24,237 nucleotides of DNA from a virus, in IMG/VR virus record IMGVR_UViG_3300013094_002227, positions 1 to 24,237 of that record. The stretch is one strand, 5' to 3'. Shown one piece after another: positions 5,362-21,195 of the stretch. How positions within the stretch are numbered: position 1 is the first letter of the stretch; the number at the start of each line of letters is the position of its first letter. The position numbers and the translations under genes were made by a program. The notes under the pieces were generated by a model. That model was not told the origin of the DNA, did no database searches, and saw nothing but the letters and a program-made list of their open reading frames with translations.

Positions 5362-5655
5362 ATGGCAATGAAAGAAAAACCAAGACAAGTATACAAAACT
5401 ATGCAGGGCAAGATTGTAGACATGCATAAACTTGTTCAACAAAACGAAATGACTGTTGCTGTTGGTAACAAAAAAGTTAATGCACGAGGCGACGAATTAG
5501 GTCCAGGCGGTAAGATTATCCGTACTAGAGAAGAAATTCAAAGATCTGCAATGAACAATACTCCGGGTGTTCCTGCTCAACAGGCGCCGGTACAGCCTAC
5601 ACCAGTGGCTACTAAAAAAGATGTATCCGATATGGATCCGGAGGGCAATGAATGA
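5362..5655 (+). CDS. Conserved phage protein of unknown function
   Basis: 97 residues with a basic N-terminal half including VNARGDELGPGGKIIRTREE at residues 34-53, and a Pro/Gln/Ala-rich, probably disordered C-terminus. There is no signal peptide, membrane segment or catalytic motif. The ATG has a good site (AGGAG at 5350-5354); a second ATG two codons on (5368) is an alternative. It overlaps the co-chaperonin gene by ATGA, which ties its expression to that gene. No family recognised. Confidence 0.6.
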   Translation: MAMKEKPRQVYKTMQGKIVDMHKLVQQNEMTVAVGNKKVNARGDELGPGGKIIRTREEIQRSAMNNTPGVPAQQAPVQPTPVATKKDVSDMDPEGNE

Positions 5656-6050
5656 TAGGGCCTATCAAAGGTGATCTCAAACCACTCAACGACCATGTAT
5701 TAGCAACAGACATGGACTTTGGTGACCAAAGAACACAGTCAGGAATCATTATACCTAGCGATGATGGCAAAAACGAAGGTATCAGACCTCGTTGGTGCAG
5801 AGTATGGAAGATTGGGCATAAACAGAAAGATGTCAAAGTCGGCGATTGGATCCTAGTTGAGCATGGCCGCTGGACTCGCGGAGTACAATTAGAGCAAGCT
5901 GATGGAACTACTATAGATGTGCGTAGAATAGATGCATCTGCTATTATGGCCATATCAGATCATCGTCCAGGAGGTATCGAATGGGGAACTTTAACGACTC
6001 ACTATTCGGCCGACGAGCCAGAGTTTAACGATTTGCAACGAGCATTTTAA
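5652..6050 (+). CDS. GroES/gp31-like co-chaperonin
   Basis: 132 residues with a GroES (Cpn10) fold pattern: LKPLNDHVLA at residues 9-18, a Gly/Asp-rich mobile loop ending in the hydrophobic tripeptide of SGIIIPSDD (30-38), then VKVGDWILVEHG (61-72) and the closing DASAIMAI (94-101). In the family the loop tripeptide docks onto GroEL, and in T4 the equivalent gp31 lets host GroEL fold the major capsid protein. The order and spacing match Cpn10, with an extra C-terminal tail of about 28 residues. The N-terminus overlaps the previous gene by four bases. A terminator follows 17 bases after the stop, so it ends its operon. It is probably made late to help capsid folding; that timing is inferred. 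Confidence 0.8.
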   Translation: MIGPIKGDLKPLNDHVLATDMDFGDQRTQSGIIIPSDDGKNEGIRPRWCRVWKIGHKQKDVKVGDWILVEHGRWTRGVQLEQADGTTIDVRRIDASAIMAISDHRPGGIEWGTLTTHYSADEPEFNDLQRAF

Positions 6051-6067
6051 CCATTATGAAACGAGCG

Positions 6068-6098
6068 ATAGGGCCATTGACTGGCCCTATTTTCTTTT
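6068..6098 (+). terminator. Intrinsic terminator with promoter element in loop
   Basis: ATAGGGCCA (6068-6076) pairs fully with TGGCCCTAT (6082-6090) across a 5-base loop, followed by TTTCTTTT. It closes the co-chaperonin operon. The loop sequence TTGAC is also the -35 box of the next promoter. Confidence 0.9.
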
Positions 6099-6105
6099 GT
6101 ATAAT
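6077..6105 (+). promoter_or_regulatory. Consensus sigma70 promoter for clamp loader unit
   Basis: TTGACT (6077-6082) and TATAAT (6100-6105) are separated by 17 bases, a near-perfect host-type promoter. Expected start is around 6111-6113, giving a leader of only about a dozen bases with the ribosome site AGAGGA (6113-6118) at its very 5' end. The -35 lies in the loop of the upstream terminator. Confidence 0.85.
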
Positions 6106-6123: not shown

Positions 6124-7038
6124 ATGAAAGAACTATGGGTAGAAAAATATCGTCCGTCAACTTTGGACGGTTATGTATTTAAAGACGAAGTATTAAAAAG
6201 CCAAGTTGAGTCTTGGATCAAAGACAAGAGTATTCCGCATATATTGTTCAGCGGATCAGCAGGGGTAGGTAAAACTACTATGGCTAAGATCTTAATTGAA
6301 CAATTAGATATACAGGATAGTGATGTATTAGCTGCTAACGGCAGTAAAGAAGCCCGTAAAATTGAGTGGGTAGACAAATTAATTGGCTTTTGCTCAACAA
6401 TGCCATTTGGTGATTTTAAAGTTGTACTAATCGACGAAGCTGACTATATGAATATACAATCAGTACAGCCGGCATTGCGTAATCTAATGGAAGACTATAG
6501 TCACAGTGTTAGATTTATACTTACTTGTAACTATCCTAATAAAATTATGCCGGCTATACATAGTCGTTGCCAGCACATTCACATTGAAAAAACAGATCTA
6601 ACAGAATTTACAGCTCGTGTAGCCACAATTTTAGTTGAAGAAAATATTGAATTCGAATTAGAAATTTTAGACAATTATGTAAAAGGCACTTATCCAGATC
6701 TGCGTAAATGTATTAATAATTTACAGATGAATAGTCTAGATGGTATTCTACATAATCCAGAAGCTGATGCTACTACTGCTGACTATAAAATTGAAATGGT
6801 CAATCTGTTCAAGGCAGGTAAAATCAGTGAAGCTCGTAAACTAGTTTGTACACAAGCACTTCCAGAAGAAATGGATGAGATATATCGTTGGCTGTATGAT
6901 AATGTAGAAATATTTGGGGATGAAGCTAAACAAGACAAGGCTATTCTTGTTATTAAACAGGGTCTAGTAGATCACTCGTTAGTTATTGATCCAGAAATTA
7001 ATTTGGCTGCAACACTTATTAGGTTGAAATATCTATAA
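6124..7038 (+). CDS. 44: Sliding-clamp loader large subunit (gp44-like)
   Basis: 304 residues, an AAA+ ATPase of the clamp-loader clade (T4 gp44, RFC small subunit). Visible: N-terminal WVEKYRP at 5-11, Walker A GSAGVGKT at 44-51, Walker B with DEAD at 104-107, sensor region [10 protein letters not shown] at 132-141 and the SRC arginine-finger motif at 147-149. The length fits gp44. With gp62 it would load the gp45 clamp for replication and late transcription; no gene 62 is seen next to it here. It has its own sigma70 promoter, consistent with early expression, and overlaps the ferredoxin gene by one base (TAATG), so both are on one message. Confidence 0.92.
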
Positions 7039-7361
7039 TGACTTATCTAGTTACAGAAGATTGTATTAATTGTAAACATACAGATTGTGTAGAAGTATGT
7101 CCTGTTGATTGCTTCCACGAAGGCCCAAACTTTCTAGTTATCAATCCTAACGAATGTATTGACTGCGGAGTATGTGTACCCGAATGTCCTATCGACGCTA
7201 TTATTGCTGATAACAATGTCGACACAGATATAGACAAGTGGTTAGAAATTAATACAAAGCTGAGTACTAAATGGCCGGTGATTACTAAGAGAAAACCTGC
7301 GCTACCTGATGCCGATATATGGCACGGACAGCCTGATAAAATCAAATTGTTAGAAGAATAA
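7038..7361 (+). CDS. fdxA: Seven-iron bacterial ferredoxin (FdxA type)
   Basis: 107 residues. The cysteine layout (C9, C12, C17, C21, C25, then C40, C43, C46, C50) is that of Azotobacter-type ferredoxin I: C9, C17 and C50 would hold a [3Fe-4S] cluster and C21, C40, C43 and C46 a [4Fe-4S] cluster. The text around them ([29 protein letters not shown]) and the C-terminal extension of about 50 residues with PLPDA-like ALPDADIW match the family over its full length. It would carry low-potential electrons in the cytoplasm. It is translationally coupled to the clamp loader. A bacterial-type 7Fe ferredoxin is unusual phage cargo; cyanophage ferredoxins I know of are plant-type 2Fe-2S. Its partner enzyme is not in view. 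Confidence 0.93.
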
Positions 7362-13464: not shown

Positions 13465-13493
13465 TTGACCGGTCCAATTAAATATAGTATAAT
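13465..13493 (+). promoter_or_regulatory. Consensus sigma70 promoter for dnaJ-def-clpA
   Basis: TTGACC (13465-13470), 17-base spacer, TATAAT (13488-13493). Expected start near 13500, leaving a leader of about 26 bases. The -10 box overlaps the loop of the terminator at 13471-13519. The bases after the -35 (TTGACCGGTCC) resemble those of the promoter at 6077 (TTGACTGGCCC). Confidence 0.85.
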
Positions 13494-13519
13494 TAACTAT
13501 ATTACATTGGACCTTTTTT
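13471..13519 (+). terminator. Two-part stem intrinsic terminator
   Basis: Outer stem GGTCCAAT (13471-13478)/ATTGGACC (13506-13513), a 2x2 internal loop, inner stem AATATAGT (13481-13488)/ACTATATT (13496-13503), a 7-base loop, then six T (13514-13519). It ends the lysis operon 14 bases after the last stop. RNA started from the enclosed promoter contains only the right arm and cannot fold it. Confidence 0.88.
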
Positions 13520-13525
13520 ACGACT

Positions 13526-14407
13526 ATGCAAGACTACTACTCAATATTAGGTGTTGGCGAAAACGCATCACCGGACGAAATTAAAAAAGCGTACAGGAAG
13601 TTGGCTAATCAGCATCATCCTGATAAGGGCGGAGATCAAGCAAAATTCAAAGACATTAGTGTTGCCTATGACAACCTAAGTGATCCGCAGAAAAAAGCTG
13701 AATATGATCAACAACGCATGTACGGTGGTATGCCAGGTGGAGGATTCCCAGGTGGAGGATTCCATTTTACTACCGGAAATCCATTTCCGGGAGGCAATCC
13801 TTTTGGTGATATCTTTGGCAATCAGCACCCATTTGGTGATATCTTTGGCCACATGCGCGGACAACAGGTTAGAAGAAATAGAGATTTAAATATAAGTTGC
13901 AATATAAGTTTACTTGATTCGTATCAAGGAAAACAAATTGAAGCTAATTATCAATTGCCTAGCGGTCGCAACCAGACCGTAGTTATTAATATTCCTCCTG
14001 GAATAGAACATGGTGGTACTATCAGATACCAAGGATTAGGAGATGATAGTATACCCGGCGTTCCCCGAGGAAATCTTAATGTCACTATCATAATACTAAA
14101 TGACCCTAATTTTTCAAGACGCGGAGATGACCTATACACTGAGGTATCAATATCACCTATTGAAGCCATGATAGGATGCAGAAAGCGTGTAAACACTATT
14201 ACTGGTCAGCAGATGGATATTGAAATACGCCCAGGTGTTACTTCAGGTACTGAGTTTGCCAGCGGTGGATTAGGATTTACGAATCCACATAATGGAATTA
14301 AAGGACGATTTATTAGTGTAGTAAATATTAAAACTCCTGCCATTACGGATCAAGATCTTATCGCAAGGCTTAGACAACTCAATGATGAAATTAATCAAAA
14401 GTACTGA
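13526..14407 (+). CDS. dnaJ: DnaJ/CbpA-type J-domain co-chaperone
   Basis: 293 residues: J domain at 1-65 with the HPD motif at 31-33, a Gly/Phe-rich linker (about 70-115) and two C-terminal substrate-binding beta domains (about 120-290). The CxxCxGxG zinc-finger repeats of full DnaJ are absent, so it is a type II (CbpA-like) J protein. It would stimulate the ATPase of host DnaK and deliver substrates to it. No good ribosome site precedes the ATG. It is first in an overlapping set with deformylase and ClpA behind a sigma70 promoter. The HPD is intact, so activity with host DnaK is expected. Confidence 0.93.
13733..13849 (+). repeat. Tandem repeats in the G/F linker of dnaJ
   Basis: A 15-base unit (CCAGGTGGAGGATTC) occurs twice in direct contact at 13733-13747 and 13748-13762. 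An 18-base unit (TTTGGTGATATCTTTGGC) occurs at 13802-13819 and again at 13832-13849, 30 bases apart. Both are perfect and in frame, giving PGGGF twice and PFGDIFG twice; the perfect DNA identity suggests recent duplication. Confidence 0.85.
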
Positions 14408-14900
14408 TCCTATACTAAAAACTAAGTCTGAACCTTGGCGTTTTGAAACCCCTGAAGATTTTTCAGAAGCCCGTCAGATTGAAATCGATATGGTTCAATT
14501 CATGATAGAAAACAATGGAGTTGGACTAGCTGCAAATCAAATCGGCATCCTTAAACGAGTCTTTGCTATTAGATTAAAAGACCAAGTGCCCTTTTGTATG
14601 TTTAATCCCTGGATTATATCAGGGGACGATGAAATGATCGATGACGAAGAGGGATGTCTAAGTTTTCCCGACCTGTGGTTAAATGTTAAACGACATAAAA
14701 AAATAACAGCCGGATACATTGACAGACAAGGAAATAAATGTATAATAGAATTAACAGACCGAGATGCTAGATGTTTTCAGCATGAACTAGATCATTTAGA
14801 TGGTGTATGTTTTACAGATAATATTAGTCCACTTAAACTTGCATTAGCAAAAAAGAAACTTGAAAAACAGAGGAAAAAGAATGGTAGAGCCAAGCGATAA
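14382..14900 (+). CDS. def: Peptide deformylase
   Basis: 172 residues with all three metal-site motifs: [10 protein letters not shown] (46-55), EGCLSFP (90-96) with metal ligand Cys92, and QHELDHLDG (133-141) with His134, His138 and catalytic Glu135. It removes the formyl group from nascent proteins. The C-terminal helix rich in Lys (150-172) is longer than in the very short cyanophage deformylases. The ATG at 14382 lies 26 bases inside dnaJ; the next codon is also ATG. The 3' end overlaps clpA by 20 bases. The active site appears complete. Confidence 0.93.
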
Positions 14901-17181
14901 TTTACAAGCAGTATTTGAAAAAGCAATTGATACTGCTAAAAAATTACACCACGAATATTTAACTATCGAGCATCTGCTATTAGCCATGCTAATGGAGGAA
15001 CAGTTCTGTAATTGCATCACAGGGTACGGTGCCAATGTTGAGGAGTTGCGCAAAAATCTAGCCGACTATCTTACACATAAATGCCAAGAAATGACTGTAC
15101 CAGACGTAGTAGTTAAACCAAAGAAAACTCAAAGTGTAGAGCGTATACTTAATAGGGCATTTACACAAGTATTATTCAATGGTCGCCAGCGTATTGAACC
15201 AACAGATGTATTTCTTGCTATGATGGGAGAGAAGCGTAGTTGGAGTTTCTATTACATTCAAAAGGCTAATATTGATAAAGATAAGTTTGCCGACTACATC
15301 AATAACCAACTTGACGGTGAAGGCGAAGTAGAAGAAAATGAGGGTGGTGGCCAAGGCGGTATTGGAATGGCTGCAGCAAAGGCGTTGGCCGCCTATACTA
15401 CTAACTTGAATGAACAAGTTAACAAAGGCAAGATTGATCCTGTGATCGGTCGTGTTGATGAATTAGAAAATATTGCATTGGCTATGGGTCGCCGCAGCAA
15501 AAACAATGTGATACTAGTAGGCGATCCTGGCGTAGGTAAAACTGCCATTGCAGAAGGCCTAGCTCACAATATTGTTAATGGGGCAGTTCCTGAGTTCTTA
15601 AAGGATTATACAGTTTATAATTTAGATATTTCAGCCATGCTTGCAGGTTCAAAATATCGTGGCGATTTTGAAGAAAGATTTAAATTAGTTTTAAAAGCTC
15701 TTACTAAGAAAGGTAAGACTGTGTTGTTTATTGACGAGGCGCATATGATCAGTGGTGCTGGATCAGCCAGTAACAGCTCAAATGATCTTGCTAATATGAT
15801 GAAGCCAGCTCTAAGCAAAGGCAATATCAAGGTAGTAGCATCAACTACCTGGGAAGAATATCGCAAGCACTTTGAAAAGGATCGTGCTCTAATGCGCCGT
15901 TTCCAACGCATTACTGTTGACGAACCTAGCGAATCAGTTACATTACAAATCCTTAAAGGTATTAAAAAATACTACGAAGGGTTCCATAGTGTTACTATTA
16001 AAGATGATGCACTCCAAGCCGCTATTAGATTGTCAGTCAAATATCAAACAGATAAAAAATTGCCAGATAAAGCCATTGACTTAATTGACCTTGCTTGTTC
16101 TCGTTTCAATCTAAAATTATCTGAAAATAAAGTAGTGACTGAACAAGAAATTGAATTTGAATTGAGCAAAGCTATTAATATGCCGATTGAGCAGATTAGT
16201 GAAATTGAAAGTTCAGGAATAGTAACGCTCAAAGAAAAGATTGATCTTGAAGTATTTGGACAAGATGTCGCTGTAGAAGAAGTGGTTGATAAAATTATTG
16301 TTTCGCAAGCGGGTCTTAAATCAGAAAATAAACCTATTGGATCATTTGTGTTCATGGGACCAACTGGGTGCGGTAAGACTGAAACTGCCAAATCACTTTC
16401 TAAGAATTTAGGAGTTAAGTTACTACGCTTTGATATGAGTGAATATCAAGAAAAACACAGCATCAGTAAACTAATTGGCAGTCCTCCAGGCTATGTTGGC
16501 TTTGAAGAAAATGCTGGATTATTGATTACACAGATACAAGAAGCTCCAAATGCTGTCTTGCTATTTGACGAAGTTGAAAAAGCACATCCTGATGTAATGA
16601 CTGTATTATTACAAATGATGGATAACGGATTTATAACTGGCAGTAATGGCAAGAAAGCTGATTGCCGTAATTTAATCCTTATTCTCACTACTAATGCTGG
16701 AGCGGAGGATGCTGATAAAAATGCCATCGGATTCGGAAGTCAACAAAAGGACTACAGTGATAAAGAACTTAAGAAATTCTTTACTCCGGAATTTCGTAAT
16801 CGTTTAGATGCTATTATTACCTTTAATAAATTAAGCCGAGAAACTATGATTTTAGTTGTAAACAAATTCATCGACGAATTGCGCAATCAAGTTAAAGATA
16901 AATCAATTAAGATTAAAATCACAGACGATGCCGTTAATTGGCTATTGGCAAAAGGTTTTGATCCTAAGATGGGTGCTCGTCCATTGGCTCGTGTAATTGA
17001 TAAAGAAATCAAACGCAGTATGGCTAAAATGATGCTATTTGGCGAATTGCGTGGCGGCGGTTGGTTGCAAATTGATGCCATTGATGACAAAATACAACTC
17101 ACTGCCAAACCAAAGGCTCCTAAAATGCCGTTACTTACTATAGATAGTACTGAACTAGATCATGTTAACCAAGACCAGTAA
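14881..17181 (+). CDS. clpA: ClpA-like AAA+ unfoldase
   Basis: 766 residues, full ClpA architecture: N-domain (1-140) of the type that in E. coli binds ClpS, a Gly/Glu linker, D1 with GDPGVGKT (214-221) and FIDEAH (283-288), and D2 with GPTGCGKT (493-500), LFDEVEKAHPD from 561 and FRNRLDAI. In D2 the loop carries IGF at 616-618, the (I/L)G(F/L) motif by which ClpA and ClpX dock on ClpP. No ClpP gene is seen here, so host ClpP would be the partner. No ClpB-type middle coiled coil is present. An ATG at 14860 in frame exists, but 14881 has GAGGAAAA just upstream and matches the family start better. Confidence 0.92.
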   Translation: MVEPSDNLQAVFEKAIDTAKKLHHEYLTIEHLLLAMLMEEQFCNCITGYGANVEELRKNLADYLTHKCQEMTVPDVVVKPKKTQSVERILNRAFTQVLFNGRQRIEPTDVFLAMMGEKRSWSFYYIQKANIDKDKFADYINNQLDGEGEVEENEGGGQGGIGMAAAKALAAYTTNLNEQVNKGKIDPVIGRVDELENIALAMGRRSKNNVILVGDPGVGKTAIAEGLAHNIVNGAVPEFLKDYTVYNLDISAMLAGSKYRGDFEERFKLVLKALTKKGKTVLFIDEAHMISGAGSASNSSNDLANMMKPALSKGNIKVVASTTWEEYRKHFEKDRALMRRFQRITVDEPSESVTLQILKGIKKYYEGFHSVTIKDDALQAAIRLSVKYQTDKKLPDKAIDLIDLACSRFNLKLSENKVVTEQEIEFELSKAINMPIEQISEIESSGIVTLKEKIDLEVFGQDVAVEEVVDKIIVSQAGLKSENKPIGSFVFMGPTGCGKTETAKSLSKNLGVKLLRFDMSEYQEKHSISKLIGSPPGYVGFEENAGLLITQIQEAPNAVLLFDEVEKAHPDVMTVLLQMMDNGFITGSNGKKADCRNLILILTTNAGAEDADKNAIGFGSQQKDYSDKELKKFFTPEFRNRLDAIITFNKLSRETMILVVNKFIDELRNQVKDKSIKIKITDDAVNWLLAKGFDPKMGARPLARVIDKEIKRSMAKMMLFGELRGGGWLQIDAIDDKIQLTAKPKAPKMPLLTIDSTELDHVNQDQ

Positions 17182-17821
17182 AAATTTATTCTGGAATAGA
17201 TATTCTTATAAGATTGTTCTTGTATGTGCTGGCGCACGATGGTTTAGATCCAACAATTTAGATCAGGTATATAAAGATCTATTAGATTGTATGCCGTTAG
17301 TTAACAAAAAAGAAACAGACCATACTAATGCGTATTGGATTACTAAAATTAAAACACACGAAGAATTAGACTATTGTTTTAAAATACATGATAGATTAAG
17401 TAAAATGCAGGACTACTTTTTAAGGGTTGAGAGTCCTTGGCTGACTATCTACAGCAATACTAAGAAAGATATCGATGCTCTGTCTAAAATAGATAGCAAA
17501 CAGGTCAAATATGTCTGTATCCCTCCGGAAAATACTGAATTAGAAGTTGGTACTGTTATTATGTCGAAGACTAACTTTGACTATAAAGTTACTTTAGGCA
17601 AAACTAAACAGAGTTACGAACCATTTGTTTCATGGGTTGACAGCAATAAAAAACTTAAACTAACTAATAGCTGTCGTAGGGATCTTGCTAAATCAAGCAG
17701 TTTCGGTGGTACGCATTTCTTTGTCACAGGAGATAAGAATCTCATGCTGGCTAAAGTACATTTAGGCGGTGCTATCAACAAAGTAGAACGCATTGTTAAA
17801 CAGTCTGTAGCTAAAAGCTAA
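17162..17821 (+). CDS. Phage protein of unknown function
   Basis: 219 residues, basic, no signal peptide or membrane segment. The N-terminal 80 residues look like a ferredoxin-like alpha/beta domain (YKIVLVCAGARWFR... then YWITKIKTHEELDYCFKIH), the second half mostly beta followed by a basic helix (VERIVKQSVAKS). It starts 20 bases inside clpA and is the last gene of the sigma70 unit before a late promoter. I have seen similar-looking proteins in T4-like cyanophages without assigned function. A nucleic-acid-binding role would fit the basic charge but is only a guess. Confidence 0.6.
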   Translation: MLTKTSKNLFWNRYSYKIVLVCAGARWFRSNNLDQVYKDLLDCMPLVNKKETDHTNAYWITKIKTHEELDYCFKIHDRLSKMQDYFLRVESPWLTIYSNTKKDIDALSKIDSKQVKYVCIPPENTELEVGTVIMSKTNFDYKVTLGKTKQSYEPFVSWVDSNKKLKLTNSCRRDLAKSSSFGGTHFFVTGDKNLMLAKVHLGGAINKVERIVKQSVAKS

Positions 17822-17824
17822 ATC

Positions 17825-17832
17825 GATAAATA
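17825..17832 (+). promoter_or_regulatory. Late promoter, T4-type octamer
   Basis: GATAAATA follows the stop at 17821 by three bases and starts the last late block. It continues as CTAG, like the promoter at 11976. Transcription would start near the palindrome at 17837. Confidence 0.65.
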
Positions 17833-17869: not shown

Positions 17870-18244
17870 ATGCGTATAAGAGAACTATTCGAAAATCAAG
17901 GCTTTAAAGAAGAAGATTATGTTGAGGGCGAAGGATCTGGCAAGCACTCAATTAATTATGATCTCGCTGAAGATCTAGCATTTTATATGCATAACAACGA
18001 TGACTGCTATCGTAAGCATGTCTATCCTGTAATTGCTCACTGTCTACACCAAGTTAAGAATAAGAAGTCAACAAGTCCAGAGGCATTTGCTAAAGCTGTA
18101 GACGAATGCTACGAAAACTATATTAAAGAATACCCAATACGCCAGCTTCCAGACAAAATAGACAAGAAACTCAAAGAAGAAATCTGTACTAGATTACACG
18201 ACGAATTGCGCGGACACATAGAACACGGGCATTATAAGGATTAA
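17870..18244 (+). CDS. Small protein with RELFE N-terminus
   Basis: 124 residues. The start MRIRELFE resembles that of the next gene (MLLRELFH). After a short acidic linker (GFKEEDYVEGEG) comes a helical domain (about 25-124) with Cys at 47, 59, 80 and 107 and His at 58 and elsewhere, ending RLHDELRGHIEHGHYKD. No known family. The N-terminal 8 residues with a Glu at the end resemble the capsid-targeting peptides of T4 internal proteins, so it may be a packaged protein; that is inference. Weak ribosome site. Confidence 0.6.
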   Translation: MRIRELFENQGFKEEDYVEGEGSGKHSINYDLAEDLAFYMHNNDDCYRKHVYPVIAHCLHQVKNKKSTSPEAFAKAVDECYENYIKEYPIRQLPDKIDKKLKEEICTRLHDELRGHIEHGHYKD

Positions 18245-18246
18245 TA

Positions 18247-21195
18247 ATGCTACTCCGTGAATTATTTCATAGGTTAACTCCTGCTATCTTCGAAGGTGGC
18301 AATTTATCTAGCCATGACATAGCTGGTAATCCAACTGTGGGCTGGACAGGTATAGCCGGTCAACATTCAGCAGGTAAAATTGATTCTGAAAATCGTAAAG
18401 CCATGGTGCCAGTGGTTAAACAGCTACTAGTAGATATTAACAACGCATTTGCACAACAATATGGACGCCATATATGGAATCAACAACTTATTGATCAAGA
18501 AGTACATACATTTATTAGCGGAAGCAGTAAATGGTTTATGTTCTTGCGACAGCACAATCCTAATTTTAATCCGCAACAACCTGAATCAGAAACTAATCCA
18601 AAGATGATTGGTATTGAAGATGCTGATTTTAAAAGAGTAAAAAAGAAAGTTGGCGATATTGACACGCAAATTGATCGTAGACTTGAACCACAGATAGAAG
18701 AATTCGTACACAAGAATATAGGTAAGAGTGTAGGTAGTGCTACACTAGTAGGTACTAAAAAGGGAAGTGATCAGTGGCTTGCACTTTGGCAAATTAATGA
18801 ACCTCCTATTACCCTACAAGTTGATTTAGAGTTTGTCGATTATACTACAGATTCTAGGGGATTTGAAATTCCTACCGAATGGGCTCAAATAAGCCACGGT
18901 AGTGAAATAGAAGATCTAAATGAAGGAATCAAAGGTGTGTTTAGACAATGGTTATATCGTTCATTGGCTAAAGTTGCACCATCAGATAAGTATGTTGCCA
19001 AAGTAACTGGTGCAGGTAAGAACAAAGCGATGCGAGTATTCGGAGGCGATGACATGAAAGAACATGTCACCGATTATGACAATCCTCCGCCCCCATTCCG
19101 TGATGCTAATTTCAGTTTTGCTGTGGCCAGTGTTGGCGGAGGCGGAGTGAGAGCCAAATACCGCGCTCCCAACCCAGAAGAAAATGTACCAAAGGAAATA
19201 AATGGCATTCCTGTTCTAGTACCACTTACTCCAGCTGAAAGTGATTATATAAAGGACATGAGTCAACAGTTTGAACAGTTCTTTGGCGAGATGCCGTCTG
19301 GCAATGAACAACAATTAATGCGTAGCCTAGTTGGTACTATAGAATTAATGAAAAAACATTTTACAGCCACCCAACAACAAACTGCCGCGCATGAGTTTAT
19401 TAAATTGTGTTTTGGACCAGCAGCGCAAATGATCGATGCTGACGACCCGGAAGCAGATTTTAAAACTAAAATGCCTGCTGTTGATTATTTACTAGATCAT
19501 CTAGGAATGAAAAATCATCGCAATAGTGTACTACAACTTGCTGATCAATATGAAAAGGCATATCATGCCAAGTCTAAAAAGGCACAACCATTAGCAGAAG
19601 CAGAAGTCAAAGCACAGCTACGCAAAGGTATGCCACACTTACATGACTTGAAGGCTCCGGATTTTTTAGATTTGATTGATGAGTTACACGATGGCAACGG
19701 TCGTTTTAAACTACAAAATATTCCTTTGAATGTTAAGGTTGATGGTTTTGGCGGGCGCTTTGGTAAAAATGCCGAAGGGAAGCCTTTTATGGGTACTAGC
19801 CGAACTGAGCCACGCTATGAAGCATCATTTGTAAAATATCATCAAGAAAAAGGCACTACTGATCCTGATATATTGAACCGTGCTAAAATGTTTGATGATT
19901 TATTTTATGAGATGATGAACGCTATCAAATTAGTTGACGGCAAATTAGGGCCTGATTTCCTAATCAATAAACAGGTAACTTGTGAAGTATTATTCTTGCC
20001 ATTTGCAACAGAAACACCAGAAGGAAAATTAAAATTCGTAGGCATCCACTATGATAAATTACCTAAAGGAGTTAAATTAGCATTAGTTCCGTTCCATATT
20101 GTTGAAGCAGACACCGGGGAACCTGTCGATGATGCAGGTAAAACTCTTAATGCACTATTAGATTTAGGTCAACAAGGTAGTGTTATGTTCCTTAATAATA
20201 GGCTAAAACAAAATCAAGGGTTGGATGTTACGGAGATAATTAATCCGTTAGACAATATCGAAGAGCTTAAACGCATAGTTAGTGATACTAGTGGTAAACG
20301 AGATAAAATAAGTTTACAATTAAAACGCGAAGTTGAAGAAAAATTACAACCTATTAAGATCGCACTTGAAAAAGCTATTATTGCAGATCCTAACATCGTT
20401 GGTAAGGATCTATTAGGACAGAACTACGAAGGAATTGTAATCAACAGTCGCCTAGGGCCTATTAAAATTACTAGCCAAGAACAGCGAGATGTCATACAAG
20501 CTAAAAAAGATGCCATGGCAACTGCTAGGACCGAAAGACCTAGAGGCGAAGCTAAAACAGCAGTAGTAGCCATCGGCAGTTTTGTCGGTCATAAAGGACA
20601 TGAACAACTATTTAATTTTACAATTAGCAAAGCTAACGAACTAGGCGGAGATCCATACTTGTTTATAGGCAACGCTGAAGGTAAGGATGATCCAATTCCG
20701 CCAAGTGTAAAAGTACAAACATGGCATAAACTTTATCCGCAGTATGCAAAAAATATTAGTACTGTAACCCATGAAGGCGGTACACTAATTCAAAAAGTTA
20801 AACATGAACTTATAAATCCATTACCCGGAAAACCACCTCGCTATGATAATATCATCATCATGGTCGGCGAAGATCGGGCAGGATTAAGTATGCCGCAGGC
20901 ATTGATGAAAGCTGTAAACAAATTCCAAGGCTACGAACACGTCAAAGTCAGCTTAGAAGTTACTCCAAGAGGTACCGGAATAAGTTTTAGTGCATTACGA
21001 AATGTACTAAAAGACCATAATATGACAGAAGAACAACAATTAGATGCATGGTGTAAGGGATTTGATGAAGCTAAGTTAGGTCGAGATTGGATACATCATT
21101 TGATGAATCTTACAAAGAAAGGTATGGGGCTAGCTGAGTCAAGTATTAAATATGCCAATCGCATGTATCGTATGCTTAGAGAAATGGCACTATGA
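18247..21195 (+). CDS. Large protein with three putative nucleotidyltransferase domains
   Basis: 982 residues. (1) About 60-250: Pol-beta-like nucleotidyltransferase pattern with Gly-Ser at 92-93 (FISGSSKW), GDID at 136-139 and a third Asp at 193 (VDLEF). (2) About 465-745: covalent nucleotidyltransferase (RNA/DNA ligase) pattern with motif I KVDG at 497-500 and Arg504, a Glu580 strand (VTCEVLF), motif IV EGIV at 728-731 and motif V lysine at 740 (GPIKIT). (3) About 770-920: HxGH nucleotidylyltransferase (NMNAT/cytidylyltransferase superfamily) with GSFVGHKGH at 777-785 and ISFSALR at 912-918. A C-terminal helical tail follows. The start, MLLRELFHRLTPAIFEGG, has AAGGA before it and looks like a T4-style targeting peptide with an I-x-E/G cut site. 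Domain 3 is the clearest, 2 good, 1 tentative. Substrate unknown. Confidence 0.75.
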   Translation: MLLRELFHRLTPAIFEGGNLSSHDIAGNPTVGWTGIAGQHSAGKIDSENRKAMVPVVKQLLVDINNAFAQQYGRHIWNQQLIDQEVHTFISGSSKWFMFLRQHNPNFNPQQPESETNPKMIGIEDADFKRVKKKVGDIDTQIDRRLEPQIEEFVHKNIGKSVGSATLVGTKKGSDQWLALWQINEPPITLQVDLEFVDYTTDSRGFEIPTEWAQISHGSEIEDLNEGIKGVFRQWLYRSLAKVAPSDKYVAKVTGAGKNKAMRVFGGDDMKEHVTDYDNPPPPFRDANFSFAVASVGGGGVRAKYRAPNPEENVPKEINGIPVLVPLTPAESDYIKDMSQQFEQFFGEMPSGNEQQLMRSLVGTIELMKKHFTATQQQTAAHEFIKLCFGPAAQMIDADDPEADFKTKMPAVDYLLDHLGMKNHRNSVLQLADQYEKAYHAKSKKAQPLAEAEVKAQLRKGMPHLHDLKAPDFLDLIDELHDGNGRFKLQNIPLNVKVDGFGGRFGKNAEGKPFMGTSRTEPRYEASFVKYHQEKGTTDPDILNRAKMFDDLFYEMMNAIKLVDGKLGPDFLINKQVTCEVLFLPFATETPEGKLKFVGIHYDKLPKGVKLALVPFHIVEADTGEPVDDAGKTLNALLDLGQQGSVMFLNNRLKQNQGLDVTEIINPLDNIEELKRIVSDTSGKRDKISLQLKREVEEKLQPIKIALEKAIIADPNIVGKDLLGQNYEGIVINSRLGPIKITSQEQRDVIQAKKDAMATARTERPRGEAKTAVVAIGSFVGHKGHEQLFNFTISKANELGGDPYLFIGNAEGKDDPIPPSVKVQTWHKLYPQYAKNISTVTHEGGTLIQKVKHELINPLPGKPPRYDNIIIMVGEDRAGLSMPQALMKAVNKFQGYEHVKVSLEVTPRGTGISFSALRNVLKDHNMTEEQQLDAWCKGFDEAKLGRDWIHHLMNLTKKGMGLAESSIKYANRMYRMLREMAL

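Follow-up and report, generated by a model that had tools for sequence, protein, structure and literature searches.

We analysed a virus record of 24,237 bases (the window), which is a fragment of the genome of a large freshwater phage and in which an earlier note had described an overlapping dnaJ-pdf-clpA cassette. The genes dnaJ (13526..14407), pdf (14382..14900) and clpA (14881..17181) are three intact open reading frames on one strand (+), with overlaps of 26 nt between dnaJ and pdf and of 20 nt between pdf and clpA. The clpA frame was listed from a TTG at 14860, and the ATG at 14881, which is preceded by AGAGGAAAAAG, is the likelier start; a clear Shine-Dalgarno sequence is absent before dnaJ. 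One ClpA scan of viral contigs gave 498 relatives, and the best 80 of these, all uncultivated, were read. Nearly all of these best 80 of 498 relatives, where the contig reaches, have kept the order of dnaJ, pdf, clpA and the genes at 17162 and 17870, and a chance overlap of open reading frames was therefore rejected. Gene-neighbour conservation had been set beforehand as the test that could refute the cassette; the genes are not scattered in the near relatives, and the cassette is real. However, it does not end with three genes, because a fourth gene (17162..17821, +) also belongs to the operon: all four genes are present at 67 loci including the window, and at nine loci pdf is missing and clpA directly follows dnaJ. 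Judging from the sequences, we consider it fairly probable that these four genes constitute a phage proteostasis operon with the functional roles proposed below. The synteny among phages argues for vertical descent within phages over a transferred bacterial operon.

The dnaJ product matched the J domain and DnaJ_C above the Pfam gathering scores. It has a J domain with HPD, a G/F region and a C-terminal domain, without a zinc finger, as in class B (CbpA/DnaJB type) proteins, and the nearest solved structures were DnaJ2-type chains. Assignment to class A DnaJ failed, with the CxxCxGxG zinc fingers absent in 78 of 78 sequences and a TIGR02349 score (191.6) below the cut-off (377). The HPD motif was conserved across the J proteins of the relatives. 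The pdf product exceeded the Pfam gathering score for Pep_deformylase and the cut-off of TIGR00079 (135.1 against 103.95), and it has the three intact catalytic motifs of a peptide deformylase, GxGLA(A/G)xQ, EGCLS and HExDH, of which EGCLS and HELDH were kept in the relatives (one has HELEH). Among the best 80 of 498 relatives, pdf was missing in 9 of the 76 scorable loci with dnaJ-clpA retained, and well-supported branches of the ClpA tree require three or more switches between its presence and absence. The pdf gene is dispensable, which argues against a tight three-part mechanism.

The clpA product contains Clp_N, AAA, AAA_lid_9, AAA_2 and ClpB_D2-small, all above the Pfam gathering scores, and aligns with residues 10-743 of Escherichia coli ClpA without a large insertion. 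We took as ClpA-type a protein of about 760 aa with an N-domain, two AAA+ modules and no coiled-coil insertion; the phage protein has this layout of an Hsp100 without M-domain, with Walker A and B motifs in both modules, which the relatives also keep intact, and a loop of the IGL/IGF type, here IGF, for docking to ClpP. Its best family, over the full length, was the NCBIfam equivalog TIGR02639, and since the score (878 bits) is under the cut-off (993), we label it ClpA-type and make no equivalog claim. The earlier note had the phage bring parts for three host machines, those of DnaK, GroEL and ClpP. For ClpP this need not hold, because the relatives encode it. The clpP gene was present in six of 11 long records of relatives, 31-53 kb upstream of clpA as computed from coordinates, and these six were the only records reaching at least 49 kb upstream; ClpP was not found in the other five, which extend upstream of clpA by no more than 6-42 kb. 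In the two frames inspected, those of L086 and L087, the catalytic triad motifs look intact. ClpP proteins of about 50-70% identity were found in the isolates PA5oct, Phosso and Atu_ph07, that of PA5oct carrying a mass-spectrometry note. The ClpP of the window's own phage is not visible because the window is a 24 kb fragment. Since the relatives encode ClpP, the phage ClpA need not use the host enzyme; it probably works with a phage ClpP, so that protein turnover is probably carried out by machinery of the phage itself and not just by what it borrows from the cell.

The other two parts of the claim are supported. Neither DnaK nor GroEL was detected in the 11 incomplete records of relatives, and the phage DnaJ should therefore depend on DnaK of the host, and the GroES-like protein on its GroEL. 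The GroES-like gene (5652..6050, +) lies in a separate transcription unit; its product scored 28.0 bits with Pfam Cpn10 (cut-off 21.1) and below the cut-off with NCBIfam GroES, belongs to phrog_931 (head morphogenesis), and has a homologue in PA5oct in the same order.

The fourth gene overlaps clpA by at least 11 nt in 81 of 81 loci. Its 219-aa product gave no Pfam, NCBIfam or PHROG family, no tblastn match among phage isolates and no match in the PDB (best Z of a second look, 5.8). The AlphaFold model is confident (pLDDT 92), and in fold the protein is related to phage proteins that are themselves uncharacterised, one of them from Atu_ph07. The end of the operon is marked by a late-promoter-like motif, CGATAAATA (17824..17832, +), before the next gene (17870..18244, +; 124 aa), which lies outside the operon. 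We call CGATAAATA putatively late-like by analogy with T4 TATAAATA; it was counted 91 times in 1.09 Mb, against 2-9 times for rearranged controls. The sequence GATAAATA precedes the next gene in 80 of 80 relatives (the best 80 of 498) and was found within 120 nt before dnaJ in none of 65 loci. Farther downstream (18247-21195), the window encodes a protein of 982 aa, part of which is cytidyltransferase-like (PHROG 3041); it is conserved in few relatives only.

The earlier note had placed the genes behind one strong host-type promoter. A strong site of sigma70 type (promoter 1, 13465..13493, +; TTGACC-17-TATAAT) is indeed present upstream of dnaJ, but it is not a single promoter that was found there: two promoters and a terminator accompany the operon. 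Just three TTGACN-TATAAT sites with a spacing of 16-18 occur in the window, and two of these serve the dnaJ-pdf-clpA operon. Promoter 1 is nested in an intrinsic-terminator hairpin, GGTCCAAT...ATTGGACC, which encloses its -10 box and the greater part of its spacer and is followed by a T-run (13471..13519, +, with the hairpin at 13471-13513; -18.2 kcal/mol). Among the best 80 of 498 relatives, a strict form of this element stands upstream of dnaJ in 51 loci, as 39 distinct sequences. In this form, the hairpin again takes in the -10 box and the greater part of the spacer of TTGACA-17-TATAAT, and the T-run and then ACGACTATG follow. The spacing was 17 in 33 of 33 elements of the first scan, and TTGACA occurs in 31 of these 33 and in 37 of the 39 distinct elements, whereas the window itself has TTGACC. 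The hairpin folds in all 39, and its arms covary, with several distinct arm families (GGCTCC/GGAGCC, GGTCCAAT/ATTGGACC and GGTCAAG/CTTGACC). Arm pairing averaged -11.7 kcal/mol within sequences versus -6.9 between them, and none of 2000 permutations was as good, a figure that the kinship of the sequences makes optimistic. We considered whether the nested element is phage-wide. Nested-type matches numbered 59 in 1.09 Mb over 81 sources, and we rejected a general repeat because most of the matches read stand before this operon. In four loci (L018, L021, L026 and L027), one or two genes resembling, by eye, 2OG-Fe(II) oxygenases lie between the element and dnaJ, and the element is still ahead of the enlarged operon. 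Two other loci (L007 and L008) have a different overlap upstream of dnaJ instead, with TTGACA in the loop and TATAAT after the T-run. In the window itself, a terminator hairpin before the clamp-loader gene (6067-6105) holds in its loop the -35 box of a TTGACT-17-TATAAT promoter, and similar overlaps occur in L005, L049, L054 and L076.

Promoter 2 (14719..14746, +; TTGACA-16-TATAAT) lies inside pdf, 134 nt 5' of the clpA ATG. In 58 of 58 distinct pdf genes the best promoter site was at the same place, 124-137 nt before clpA, with hexamer matches of 12/12 in 39 genes and 11/12 in 16, and a spacing of 16 in 57. Synonymous shuffles of single pdf genes made the site only moderately extreme (average best score, 9.8). 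A by-column codon test of 38 pdf genes under 85% identity is the stronger test. Here, the Asp codon in the promoter was GAC in 36 of 38 genes (background, 0.35), whereas GAT is preferred at the other Asp columns of good conservation, and the two Ile codons were ATA in 24/24 and 31/33 (background, 0.19). Promoter 2 thus appears to be held by synonymous codon choice in the 58 relatives and would serve clpA. Where pdf is missing, a sigma70-like site occupies the short interval preceding clpA; it has 10-12 of 12 matches in six of the seven loci tested.

Among known phages, the Pseudomonas phages PA5oct, Paride and MIJ3 (Wroclawvirus) were the isolates nearest to the window in the clamp-loader comparison (54%). 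They share adjacent dnaJ-clpA, a terminator-like hairpin before dnaJ, a weaker sigma70-like site before clpA and GATAAATA ahead of the following virion gene, and have ClpP 13 kb upstream; they differ from the window in a shorter J protein, the absence of pdf from the operon and the lack of the fourth gene. PA5oct has nine window genes in collinear order, from a polIII-like fragment to clpA, a hairpin immediately ahead of dnaJ, and GATAAATA at the same place, before a structural (virion) gene with a mass-spectrometry note. Near the ClpP of PA5oct (173-188 kb, L173), FtsH, an FtsH-interacting membrane protein and a 'polyubiquitin-like protein' are annotated. Sinorhizobium phage Phosso (PV764938) has dnaJ-pdf-clpA in the same order and a phage ClpP, with identities to the window of 32/39/45%; unlike in the window, dnaJ and pdf are separated by a gap of 42 bp, the fourth gene and the terminator-nested promoter are absent, and the three genes are preceded, within one run, by two small ones. 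Agrobacterium phage Atu_ph07 also has a phage ClpP and adjacent genes for ClpA (gp292) and DnaJ (gp293), but no pdf between them, a different upstream region and no description as an operon. It has ClpS, and its authors already suggested aggregate clearance (PMC6102473). The operons of Phosso and Atu_ph07 have a TAAATA-like site upstream and no sigma70-like one, and timing may therefore differ between lineages. A CTAAATACGT motif, possibly of late type, stands before the first gene of their dnaJ-clpA runs (L082 near 7190 and L083 near 7240). In RaK2, GAP32 and others, clpA is present but no dnaJ was detected.

We propose that unmodified host RNA polymerase would read the operon from its sigma70 promoters, probably from early infection, in a genome region that seems otherwise to be served by late-type promoters. 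Gene content and its conservation, the conserved promoters and terminator, and ClpP in relatives are what the sequences show; the timing, partners and substrates named here are what we infer, and strong promoters of sigma70 type are no proof that expression is early. The hairpin around promoter 1 would stop transcripts from the upstream lysis genes, transcription of the operon would start within its 3' half, and promoter 2 would uncouple expression of clpA and the fourth gene from that of dnaJ-pdf. Host DnaK would be recruited by the J protein, ClpA would unfold chosen proteins and pass them via its IGF loop to the phage-encoded ClpP from elsewhere in the genome, and the deformylase, as an optional member, may keep N-terminal processing up under heavy synthesis. 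It is a speculative and, in this full form, quite unlikely extension that a dedicated viral ClpAP protease has this operon as its core, with the fourth protein as substrate selector, ClpA output set by the promoter in pdf, and the terminator-nested promoter as a switch that has the module read only when host polymerase starts there.

Other roles can be weighed against the same data. ClpA might act mainly without ClpP, as an unfoldase or remodeller for virion assembly or replication complexes that partners DnaJ-DnaK without degradation. Translocase or assembly roles were proposed for jumbo-phage ClpA by Iyer et al. 2021 (PMC7824862), and several jumbo phages have clpA beside structural genes without dnaJ (GAP32 and Vibrio 2.275.O); however, the docking loop is IGF in 83 of 83 ClpA sequences, and ClpP accompanies dnaJ-clpA in relatives and isolates, so that we regard this role as unlikely. 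The J protein could instead hijack or inhibit DnaK like Rki of phage RB43, stabilising sigma32 and raising host chaperones, while its neighbours only share the promoter. This is a rather improbable reading: the precedent of Rki, which is early expressed and DnaK-dependent (PMC3486835), and the failure to find a phage DnaK in the 11 records are in its favour, but the phage protein has every part of the class B architecture, including a C-terminal domain for substrate binding, which suggests a generic co-chaperone, and the dnaJ-clpA linkage is deep.

The earlier note had further proposed an N-degron takeover, in which deformylation and ClpA would lead to destruction of host proteins by their N-termini. 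ClpA does have the N-domain that ClpS binds, and the hosts, if beta- or gammaproteobacteria, would have ClpS. Removal of the formyl group, however, leaves Met, which is not a classical N-degron. ClpS was not detected in the 11 incomplete records of relatives, and pdf is dispensable, being lost in the nine loci above and absent beside dnaJ-clpA in PA5oct and Atu_ph07. The idea is therefore unsupported and, in our judgement, very improbable. Deformylation could even protect proteins, because a role of fMet itself as a signal for degradation has been proposed (PMC4745127).

Published jumbo phages (PMC6102473, PMC7824862, PMC12619734) had already shown the parts of the operon and the adjacency of dnaJ and clpA. 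The Clp and J proteins of these phages have hitherto been listed singly, with guessed roles. A description as an operon with these promoters was not found in the open-licence literature, of which our coverage is incomplete, and the regulatory layout appears undescribed. Two of its devices are concrete: in one, a sigma70 promoter sits within a terminator whose arms covary, and in the other, synonymous choice preserves a promoter within a coding gene. Together with the phage ClpP in relatives and the fixed partner gene, the conserved operon and its dedicated promoters make the role testable in terms of which proteins are destroyed or refolded, and when. Some relatives can be cultivated, among them Paride, a phage that replicates on Pseudomonas aeruginosa in the dormant state (PMC10761892).

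We also considered the affiliation of the phage. Moraphages are freshwater jumbo phages with core ClpA and PhoH and, in some, DnaJ (PMC12619734); they have predicted Bacteroidota hosts, Lys-tRNA ligase in most and DnaK in some, and membership was unsupported, as neither Lys-tRNA ligase nor DnaK was found in the 11 records of relatives. Two sequences named 'Acinetobacter phage MD-2021a' (CAKLQF020000008.1 and CAKLQH020000043.1) contain clpA, clpB, cbpA, dnaJ and clpP; they resemble bacterial contigs and were left out of the comparisons. Behind the clamp loader (7038-7361), the window has an FdxA-type ferredoxin gene over the NCBIfam FdxA_Protbact cut-off, which occurs in few relatives (L018). 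As a host marker it was rejected, and because its best bacterial identity is about 66%, the host is given only as proteobacterial.
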